Shown here one piece after another: positions 14,173 to 28,691 of a DNA stretch of 35,871 nt. A program made the position numbers and the translations under genes. Positions within the stretch are counted from its first letter, which is position 1. Each line of letters starts with the position of its first letter. The DNA lies in IMG/VR virus record IMGVR_UViG_3300008450_000177, positions 1 to 35,871 of that record; one strand, 5' to 3'. Origin of the DNA: a virus. Under the pieces are notes generated by a model. It was not told the DNA's origin, ran no database searches, and saw only the letters and a list, made by a program, of their open reading frames with translations.

Positions 14173-14357
14173 TGGCCTACCAACAAGATGATGAATCAAT
14201 GGTTGACGTTTGCAACAGACTGCTTGGCTCTGCGATAGAGGAAATAGAAGTCGATGCTGATGAGCAAACTGTTTACATACACACCAGCACTGGGATGATT
14301 AAGATTGGTGGTGAAGAACTATCTATGTGGGTAGAGTGCGAGCGATACGCAAGCTAG
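14172..14357 (+). CDS. Small acidic hypothetical protein, 61 aa
   Basis: The product (MAYQQDDESMVDVCNRLLGSAIEEIEV...) is acidic, with no recognised family. A two-stranded segment (QTVYIHTSTGMIKIGGEELSMWVE) suggests a small alpha/beta fold. It starts on the last base of the phosphoesterase stop and ends the rightward block. Its TAG stop overlaps the TAG stop of the leftward gene at 14354 within one CTAG, so there is no space for a terminator between the convergent blocks. Confidence 0.55.
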   Translation: MAYQQDDESMVDVCNRLLGSAIEEIEVDADEQTVYIHTSTGMIKIGGEELSMWVECERYAS

Positions 14358-14578
14358 GGTAACTCTCCGCGATTCACATCTATATTGGATTCATCCCAAT
14401 TCAATGGGCATCCAGTCCAGCCACACTCTTTTGTTGATGCAAGGCTCTTGCCACACACATCGCAGATAGGGTCTTTGTTCTTCTTTCCCCATATCAAATC
14501 ATAGTTGTCTTCGTATTGCTTGCTATTCTTGCGTGATAGGATTGCATCCCCAGTCACATCGTTCGTTGTTGTTACCAT
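14354..14578 (-). CDS. Small zinc-ribbon-like protein, 74 aa
   Basis: The C-terminal half contains ICDVCGKSLASTKECGWTGCP, a CxxC plus C-x4-C arrangement that could bind one zinc ion. The N-terminal half is polar with no known domain. A good ribosome binding site (AGGAG, seven to eight bases before the ATG at 14578) supports the start. It is the last leftward gene of the early block and is separated from the rest by the oppositely oriented pqqA. Confidence 0.6.
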   Translation of the reverse strand: MVTTTNDVTGDAILSRKNSKQYEDNYDLIWGKKNKDPICDVCGKSLASTKECGWTGCPLNWDESNIDVNRGELP

Positions 14579-14612
14579 AATAACTCCTACAATTAATGGT
14601 TTTCTCTATTGT

Positions 14613-14640
14613 TTGTCTTTAATATTAAGCGGACTATTAC
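14613..14640 (+). promoter_or_regulatory. Possible promoter upstream of pqqA
   Basis: TTGTCT (14613-14618) and TATTAC (14635-14640) are separated by 16 bases and lie about 42 bases before the pqqA start. The -10 matches four of six consensus bases, so this is a weak call based on spacing and position. The only upstream rightward transcription would have to cross the convergent gene at 14354-14578. Confidence 0.35.
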
Positions 14641-14644
14641 ATAC

Positions 14645-14658
14645 AAGCAATGTTGCTT
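14645..14658. promoter_or_regulatory. Inverted repeat upstream of pqqA, possible operator
   Basis: AAGCAATGTTGCTT is a perfect 6+6 inverted repeat with a TG spacer, lying directly after the possible -10. Its 12-base core AGCAATGTTGCT recurs at 15105-15116 within a leftward gene, again as a perfect palindrome (15103-15118). It may be a binding site or a small leader hairpin; neither is shown. Confidence 0.4.
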
Positions 14659-14681
14659 AACATAAATTAAGGACTACTATC

Positions 14682-14753
14682 ATGTGGACATCACCAGCAG
14701 CTACAGAAATGCGCTTTGGCTTTGAAGTAACAATGTATGTTATGAATAAATAA
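14682..14753 (+). CDS. pqqA: PQQ precursor peptide PqqA
   Basis: This 23-codon gene encodes MWTSPAATEMRFGFEVTMY followed by VMNK. It matches PqqA in length and in every diagnostic place: MW start, Pro5, an acidic-hydrophobic-Arg triplet (EMR), Gly13, and the EVTMY core with Glu15 and Tyr19. In known PqqA the radical-SAM enzyme PqqE, with the chaperone PqqD, joins these two side chains, and the pair becomes PQQ. AAGGA lies eight bases before the ATG. No pqqB, C, D, E or F is present, so host enzymes would have to process it. It lies alone on the plus strand inside the leftward block. The call rests on motif recognition, which is strong despite the short length. Confidence 0.9.
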   Translation: MWTSPAATEMRFGFEVTMYVMNK

Positions 14754-14847
14754 CAAATTTGTGATATATGGTGGCGGCTATTAACCCAGTCGCCATTCCT
14801 AAAGCAAACGCTTCTTTGTAGCACAATATGTATTCAAGTGTATACAT
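14740..14847 (-). CDS. Tiny membrane protein, 35 aa
   Basis: The frame reads MYTLEYILCYKEAFALGMAT then GLIAATIYHKFVIYS, with one hydrophobic segment (about residues 14-28). AGGA lies six bases before the ATG. It starts eight bases after the stop of the 40-residue gene upstream. Its 3' end overlaps the 3' end of pqqA on the other strand by 14 bases. The hairpin at 14772-14795 falls inside its coding region. It is too short for homology by eye. Confidence 0.45.
   Translation of the reverse strand: MYTLEYILCYKEAFALGMATGLIAATIYHKFVIYS
14772..14795. other. Hairpin downstream of pqqA
   Basis: TGGCGGCT (14772-14779) pairs with AGTCGCCA (14788-14795) through eight pairs, one of them G-T, around an 8-base loop. 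It begins 19 bases after the pqqA stop. No T-run follows, so it is not a classical terminator, but it could protect or end the pqqA mRNA. It also lies in the coding region of the small leftward gene at 14740-14847, so it may be fortuitous. Confidence 0.4.
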
Positions 14848-14855
14848 GTCAAATC

Positions 14856-14978
14856 CTAGTAGCAAAAAGTTCCCACATCAGTTGTTATACATTTAAGTAT
14901 TTTCCCATCCGGCATTTTAACTGGTTCGTAGATGTCTGTGCCATTCATTAATGACAATACTAATAATAAATTAATCAT
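14856..14978 (-). CDS. Small hypothetical protein, 40 aa
   Basis: The frame reads MINLLLVLSLMNGTDIYEPV then KMPDGKILKCITTDVGTFCY. The N-terminal 11 residues are hydrophobic like a short signal or anchor, and two Cys residues lie near the end. Its ATG overlaps the stop of the upstream gene (ATGA), which supports translation by coupling. The family is not recognised. Confidence 0.5.
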   Translation of the reverse strand: MINLLLVLSLMNGTDIYEPVKMPDGKILKCITTDVGTFCY

Positions 14979-15199
14979 ACAGTCTTCCCAATGTAGGTTG
15001 CCTTAACGTTATTATTAAACTGCAAAGTTACTGCACAGTCTTGCCCTTTAGTTCCATGCATTAGCTTATATAATCCAAATCCAATGGAAACAATACAGAT
15101 AAGTAGCAATGTTGCTACAACCACGGTGGCTCTATCTATGCTTGAATCTTTCTTGCAGTTGCAGTTGCGCCCTTGGTTGCACTCTTGATTACACGGCAT
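14975..15199 (-). CDS. Cys-rich single-pass membrane protein, 74 aa
   Basis: The N-terminus has four Cys in MPCNQECNQGRNCNCKKD. One clear membrane helix follows (ATVVVATLLLICIVSIGFGLY), then a polar C-terminal tail. The start at 15199 is preferred because GGGG lies seven bases upstream. The alternative ATG two codons earlier (15205) is too close to it. The gene overlaps both neighbours in the leftward early operon. The four Cys could bind metal or be lipidated; neither is shown. Confidence 0.55.
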   Translation of the reverse strand: MPCNQECNQGRNCNCKKDSSIDRATVVVATLLLICIVSIGFGLYKLMHGTKGQDCAVTLQFNNNVKATYIGKTV

Positions 15200-15353
15200 T
15201 GTCATTCCCCTTTAATGCTTCGTTACAGGCTTGAAGTGCATCTACTGTATTGTCATAAACTCCAATGCCTCTCCAGTCAGCTCCAAGCATAAATGCTTCA
15301 CATAAATCTTCCATCGCTTCAATCGCCATCTTTAATGCTTCGTCTTTAGTCAT
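15189..15353 (-). CDS. Small conserved phage protein, 54 aa
   Basis: The frame reads MTKDEALKMAIEAMEDLCEA, continues FMLGADWRGIGVYDNTVDAL and ends QACNEALKGNDNAV. The MTKDEALKxAIEAxE opening and NEALKG ending recur in small phage proteins of unknown function. The product should be mostly helical. Eight bases at its start overlap the DUF3310 gene's end and its stop lies inside the next gene, in keeping with operon packing. Confidence 0.6.
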   Translation of the reverse strand: MTKDEALKMAIEAMEDLCEAFMLGADWRGIGVYDNTVDALQACNEALKGNDNAV

Positions 15354-27961: not shown

Positions 27962-28113
27962 ATGTAGAGATAAGCGTAGAACTAGAAGCTGAAGACTTGA
28001 AGAAAGATAAGCGATTGACTAAGTTTGTAATGCAGATGCTTGCAAAGCAATCTAAAGAGAAGAAGAAGTCGCTAATTGAAGACATGCCTGAAGATGAAGA
28101 AATGGATGACTAA
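27958..28113 (+). CDS. Small charged hypothetical protein, 51 aa
   Basis: The frame reads MNVEISVELEAEDLKKDKRL then TKFVMQMLAKQSKEKKKSLI and EDMPEDEEMDD. It has a Lys-rich middle and a strongly acidic C-terminus. ATGA overlap at the start and TAATG at the end join it to both neighbours, which supports expression. Function unknown. Confidence 0.55.
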   Translation: MNVEISVELEAEDLKKDKRLTKFVMQMLAKQSKEKKKSLIEDMPEDEEMDD

Positions 28114-28691
28114 TGGCTATTCAAGTCGAACGTGAATCCATAACTACCAAGTCTAGGTTTGTATCGCCTACCTATACAGACAAGGATGGGGTGCAGCAAA
28201 CAGTTGGCTCTGATAGACCTGCGCCAATCATAGAGGTAAACCATTTGCGCTTGCATGAAGCTAGGGCATATTACGTTTACAAGATGTACCCCTACTCTGC
28301 TGGCTTGGCTGCTGGCTCTAGTATAGACATTGCTTTGGCTTTCCCATCTGGCACTACTCCGCACCTTATCTTTCAATACGAAAGCGCTGGAGAGTCTGAG
28401 TTCTATATGTATGAATCGCCAACAACATCTGGTGGAACGGCTCTTACTAAGCATCGTAGGAACAGAAATGTAGCAACAAGTAGTGTAGCTGCGGCTGTTA
28501 TTGCTCCAACTGTAACGTCAGTAGGCACGGAAATATATTCTGAGTTTATCCCTGCTAGTAACAAAGGGGGTGCTGGTGGTAGCTATAGCTTTGAGTTTGT
28601 GTTGGCTCCATTGACGACATACTTGTTTAGATTGACGAATGTTAATGCACAGCCTCACCCTAGTAACTTAAGAATTGAATGGTATGAATAG
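28113..28691 (+). CDS. Conserved structural protein, 192 aa
   Basis: The product is beta-rich: MAIQVERESITTKSRFVSPT, VNHLRLHEARAYYVYKMYPY, then a later GGAGGSYSFEFVLAPLTTYL and FRLTNV. This reads like a jelly-roll decoration or head-fibre domain, a type often found between terminase and portal in aquatic podoviruses. It shares a base with the previous stop. No catalytic residues are apparent. Confidence 0.5.
   Translation: MAIQVERESITTKSRFVSPTYTDKDGVQQTVGSDRPAPIIEVNHLRLHEARAYYVYKMYPYSAGLAAGSSIDIALAFPSGTTPHLIFQYESAGESEFYMYESPTTSGGTALTKHRRNRNVATSSVAAAVIAPTVTSVGTEIYSEFIPASNKGGAGGSYSFEFVLAPLTTYLFRLTNVNAQPHPSNLRIEWYE

Follow-up and report, generated by a model that had tools for sequence, protein, structure and literature searches.

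Why would a phage carry a gene for PqqA, the precursor peptide of PQQ, and does it in fact carry one? The question is raised by a short frame in a stretch of viral DNA of 35,871 bases (IMG/VR record IMGVR_UViG_3300008450_000177, positions 1 to 35,871; hereafter, the window), which the original prediction, made from the letters alone, had read as a phage gene supplying the substrate of PQQ synthesis. Methylotrophs of the Methylophilaceae use PQQ enzymes to oxidize methanol and reach high abundance in lakes and coastal seas.

The frame lies on the plus strand at positions 14682 to 14753 and comprises 23 codons plus a stop, with the translation MWTSPAATEMRFGFEVTMYVMNK. A ribosome-binding site, AAGGA (14669 to 14673, plus strand), sits 8 bases 5' of the ATG, as had been predicted. 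The product matched all 19 model positions of PF08042 (37.9 bits, E = 1.7e-9; curated cutoff, 21.1 bits) and, end to end, the NCBIfam model TIGR02107 (34.4 bits, E = 1.4e-8; curated cutoff, 20 bits). Both models thus agree over the full length with the identity first proposed for the 23-codon frame. A PqqA search of the whole record returned this frame as its single match (E = 6.1e-10), and the search found no match in 14 control genomes. A degenerate DNA pattern covering most of the peptide had a single match in the window and none in 100 dinucleotide shuffles. The cross-linked pair E-x-x-x-Y is present as E15 and Y19, the residue numbers originally given. Judged by its sequence, the frame is PqqA beyond doubt. 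A solved structure for the peptide was sought by sequence, and none was found. It resembles the Methylophilaceae type in its length of 23 residues and in W2, P5, G13, Glu15, Thr17, and Tyr19; it differs in being phage encoded and solitary, with no pqqB-E nearby, and in having Ser at residue 4, where the hosts mostly have Thr or Lys.

The window pqqA is the sole plus-strand gene between two minus-strand frames and lies directly beyond the plus-strand late genes. Its divergent upstream neighbor (14354 to 14578, minus strand) encodes 74 aa with two CxxC pairs, zinc-ribbon-like and with no Pfam match, and the downstream neighbor in the frame listing (14975 to 15205, minus strand; 76 aa) is arranged tail to tail with it. 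The same tail-to-tail layout, judged from annotated neighbors, is found at the pqqA of the phages MEP301 and P19250A. The upstream stretch in which a pqqA promoter would have to sit (14579 to 14668, plus strand) holds no good sigma-70 match, a weak one at 14553 to 14581 being the only match upstream of the gene, and no conserved sigma-70 promoter stood out when sought upstream of the viral pqqA copies. An AGG/GGA-type ribosome site precedes all 131 of the viral pqqA frames checked. On the 3' side of the stop, a stable hairpin with a 10-pair stem and no T run (14770 to 14797, plus strand), lying within a 77-nt stretch with a folding z of -2.5, is possibly the transcript end. Among viral copies, the 80 bases past the stop hold a hairpin with a T run in 51% of cases, versus 8% of shuffles. 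At the 3' end, the pqqA of Venkman abuts a GC hairpin that has a T run, that of MEP402 is immediately followed by a same-strand gene, and that of Melnitz by a tRNA gene. No Rfam families were found in the window.

The terminase of the window shares 79.5% identity with that of the Methylophilales phage MEP301 (OM43 host), other isolates being far less alike, and the terminase, portal, and capsid genes of the window are homologous to those of this isolate. We infer that the host of the window phage is a Methylophilaceae bacterium, and on its gene content pqqA reads as a host-derived metabolic gene within a genuine phage genome. When 50,697 phage records were searched in translation, pqqA was present in nine of the nine Methylophilales isolate records found (P19250A, MEP301, Venkman, MEP401, MEP402, and four Melnitz variants), a count that leaves out MEP431-434, HIM624-A, and Venkman EXVC038S, as well as in the uncultured Venkman relative ctXG6705. 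With the Acinetobacter contigs discussed below set aside, these were the only PqqA matches in the collection. Queries with approximate PqqA peptides of the Pseudomonas type and Klebsiella type retrieved nothing further from this collection, which includes many phages of hosts with these PqqA types. The pqqA-bearing isolates fall into five unrelated lineages: the terminases of MEP301/window, P19250A, Venkman/ctXG6705, and MEP402 give no mutual BLAST match, and Melnitz is a T4-like myovirus. The correct-strand gene is annotated in 0 of the 10 public phage records that have it. The ctXG6705 and Melnitz records draw a "hypothetical protein" on the opposite strand at this site, and the P19250A gene (KX815270.1, 28085 to 28153) is unannotated. 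The expectation that gene callers would miss so short a frame was therefore correct.

A solitary pqqA in viral data might also be a passenger or an artifact, that is, host DNA binned as viral or a neutral fragment of recent capture. Host orphan copies of pqqA are solitary as well, so missing pqqB-E neighbors are no proof of phage origin, and two Acinetobacter "phage" records look like host DNA. These, named Acinetobacter phage MD-2021a (CAKLQF020000010.1 and CAKLQH020000055.1), both carry pqqA; the former was rejected as a phage and is host DNA, its pqqA adjoining pqqBCDE, fur, and ppk. For the methylophages, however, contamination is refuted by the isolates, in which pqqA lies inside the complete genomes of plated phages.

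The metagenomic loci also argue against an artifact. IMG/VR was searched with degenerate DNA patterns, the first of which, for GFEVTMY, gave at least 120 loci, with a complete PqqA-like frame in all matches listed; a second, built on codons 1 to 11 alone, gave 37 loci more, and at least 150 IMG/VR contigs carry pqqA. Among the matches listed, 94 of 120 loci have proteins in common with the methylophage isolates or the window, and most of the others tested, several of them with other PqqA types, adjoin capsid, portal, tail, or terminase genes. No pqqB-E was found beside viral pqqA in the stretches around the listed loci (at least 120). Nine further IMG/VR contigs have a PqqA of alphaproteobacterial type (GMEINCYA), two of them with a phage terminase among the proteins tested, which indicates that pqqA carriage extends beyond methylophages. 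The viral contigs L425 and L416 and their relatives L417 to L424 have alphaproteobacterial-type peptides, SWNAPKITEVCVGMEINCYACAEL and similar, and terminase or other phage genes are present on the contigs of this group.

For the conservation test, viral copies were picked by codons 1 to 11 only, with the Glu15 and Tyr19 codons unused. Both residues were intact in all 119 viral frames picked in this way. The core read GFEVTMY in 112 of these, GFEVTLY in 5, and GFEITMY in 2, so that variation inside GFEVTMY was restricted to M18L and V16I. Over codons 12 to 23, the 115 distinct viral sequences gave a pN/pS of 0.064 and a dN/dS of 0.029, with synonymous sites near saturation. In phage pairs with homologous flanks, synonymous codon differences outnumbered nonsynonymous ones about threefold (2197 versus 683), although the pairs are not independent. 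The pattern of synonymous substitution in related phages, which had been named as a check, thus turned out to be one of strong purifying selection, and comparison of the frames indicates that it acts across many unrelated phages. Part of the selection measured may predate capture, having acted in hosts. A dN/dS of about 0.03 rules out a neutral passenger, and with contamination refuted by the isolates, we give next to no weight to the passenger or artifact explanation as a whole. An RNA element was considered as well; synonymous sites vary freely, which counts against it.

The same data bear on whether the phage peptide might act against the host pathway. A decoy or inhibitor would occupy host PqqD/PqqE so that no PQQ is made and PQQ synthesis is shut down, and a small peptide could bind PqqD. 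Loss of Glu15 or Tyr19 would then be expected, but neither was lost in any of the 119 viral copies. Moreover, the commonest viral PqqA, MWTTPAATEMRFGFEVTMYVMNK, is also the commonest Methylophilaceae peptide in a host sample that was itself selected by pattern, making it identical to the commonest host substrate, and an early block would presumably starve the phage, whose hosts rely on oxidizing methanol. Since every copy examined had kept its reactive residues, we regard a decoy as highly unlikely.

The peptide is conserved, but the gene is not fixed. In the terminase lineage of the window, only 3 of the 23 longer records have pqqA, so the gene is not universal there, and six-frame checks confirmed its absence from six records of about 34 kb. 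These near-complete relatives imply that phages of this type can do without pqqA. The pqqA-less relatives have head and tail genes in common with the window but not early genes, and the G+C of most of them is 0.435 to 0.511, versus 0.38 to 0.42, with one exception (G010, 0.359). The differing G+C and unshared early genes make it likely, rather than proven, that they infect different hosts. Presence/absence pairs show that pqqA is not universal among the close relatives of P19250A, Venkman, and MEP402 either. One relative (G409) matches Venkman on both flanks and is missing about 170 bases including pqqA, another (G403) matches P19250A on both flanks and carries about 300 bases of unrelated sequence in the pqqA slot, and a third (G410) is without pqqA at the site equivalent to that beside MEP402. 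The slot in G403 (contig L675, 5780 to 6150) holds a 52-residue basic frame, MIVYSAKRSPIGHGLLLKRWYRKRTFDKNARLSLDMKRLRKKWWHFKIRWEV. Close relatives without pqqA at otherwise conserved sites mark the gene, in these alignments, as a small exchangeable cassette that is gained and lost. The original prediction had held that loss of the frame or of Glu15/Tyr19 in close relatives would speak against it; clean absence of the cassette does occur, but decay of the two residues does not.

The hosts themselves have amplified the gene. Of 187 Methylophilaceae genomes, 185 have pqqA and 171 have at least two copies (median 3, mean 4.0, maximum 12), whereas just 28 of the 185 genomes sampled from the class carry it, mostly in 1 to 3 copies. 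This agrees with the 3 to 12 pqqA copies reported for Methylophilaceae, in which pqqBCDE is normally single (PMC4109929). In our data, pqqBCDE adjoins pqqA in 23 of 140 host loci. The idea that the host orphan copies are prophage remnants was unsupported, with one weak phage-protein match in the 140 loci. The window pqqA is identical at 65 of 69 bases to the Methylotenera versatilis copy that adjoins pqqBCDE; a 23-residue frame carries little phylogenetic signal.

PQQ synthesis uses up one PqqA per PQQ, while PqqB-E are catalysts and can be reused. It is likely that phage pqqA is functional and that its peptide is supplied as a substrate from which host PqqB-E make PQQ, and we infer that this is the best-supported mechanism. 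In such a scheme, the phage would express the 23-residue precursor during infection, host PqqD/PqqE would cross-link its Glu15 with Tyr19, and a host protease and PqqB/PqqC would complete PQQ. As host gene expression falls, PqqA would be exhausted first. Since the peptide is consumed and the enzymes are reusable, a 72-base gene would suffice to keep the pathway running, restoring supply at minimal genome cost. The extra PQQ would keep methanol dehydrogenase loaded, and hence the methylotroph's energy supply going, during phage production; in this way pqqA would raise PQQ and benefit the phage. Cyanophages carry psbA, a photosystem gene, and there too the phage replaces a fast-consumed part of the host energy machinery, but psbA encodes a protein subunit, whereas PqqA is a consumed 23-residue precursor peptide. 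The original reading of phage pqqA as a supplied PQQ substrate is thus supported by the sequence evidence.

Reports on host dosage bear on this scheme from both sides. PqqA availability is rate-determining in Methylovorus MP688, which belongs to the host family, according to Ge 2015, as cited in PMC11317620. In Methylobacterium extorquens AM1, one pqqA copy was reported to be dispensable for PQQ synthesis in a study that did not extend to orphan copies (PMC11317620). An alternative to the loading of methanol dehydrogenase is that free PqqA or PQQ has another job, in lanthanide handling, regulation, or redox protection: orphan pqqA copies are responsive to the lanthanide supply, and in Methylobacterium a part in taking up lanthanides has been proposed (PMC11317620). 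Such another job is unlikely, as the peptide is conserved in the manner of a PQQ precursor and, among cultured phages, pqqA tracks hosts in which PQQ is central. Returning to substrate supply, it is reasonably probable that supplying a consumed precursor is a recurrent strategy, in which many unrelated lineages of phages with PQQ-dependent hosts independently took up a mobile pqqA-only cassette of about 170 to 280 bases because PqqA dosage limits host PQQ. With similar, moderate confidence, the strategy would cover Methylophilaceae phages above all, plus those with alphaproteobacterial-type PqqA, and would place pqqA among the smallest phage metabolic genes.

Phage-encoded PqqA is already known as a kind. 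The original prediction had left open whether it had been reported; it was described in 2020 for a single T4-like population, the Lake Baikal methylophage VP_266, in which it was proposed as an auxiliary metabolic gene (AMG) for methanol oxidation (Coutinho et al. 2020, PMC7678222). VP_266 resembles the window phage in encoding PqqA, but it is T4-like and also has methanol dehydrogenase, whereas the window phage is small (35.9-kb record) and related to MEP301, with no methanol dehydrogenase gene among its listed frames. The same paper states that its AMGs are all absent from P19250A (PMC7678222), which is wrong for pqqA, present at 28085 to 28153. In a 2026 survey, pqqA, pqqD, and pqqE appear in the list of viral genes from sediment (PMC13188868). 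None of the isolate papers searched names PQQ as a trait of the phages. What is new here is the breadth of carriage; the presence of pqqA alone in small phages, and without a phage methanol dehydrogenase; the nine methylophage isolates with unannotated pqqA, P19250A included, for which published annotations are corrected; and the behavior of pqqA as a cassette under strong selection.

Standard annotation hid phage pqqA because the gene has only 23 codons, and AMG surveys with ordinary gene callers overlook peptide-sized genes. Cultured phage-host pairs, together with naturally cassette-free phages for comparison, make the idea directly testable. The same tiny gene in nine cultured phages suggests that Methylophilales phages probably top up the energy-producing chemistry of their hosts during infection. 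Should these phages supply PqqA as a matter of routine, their infections may sustain methanol oxidation.
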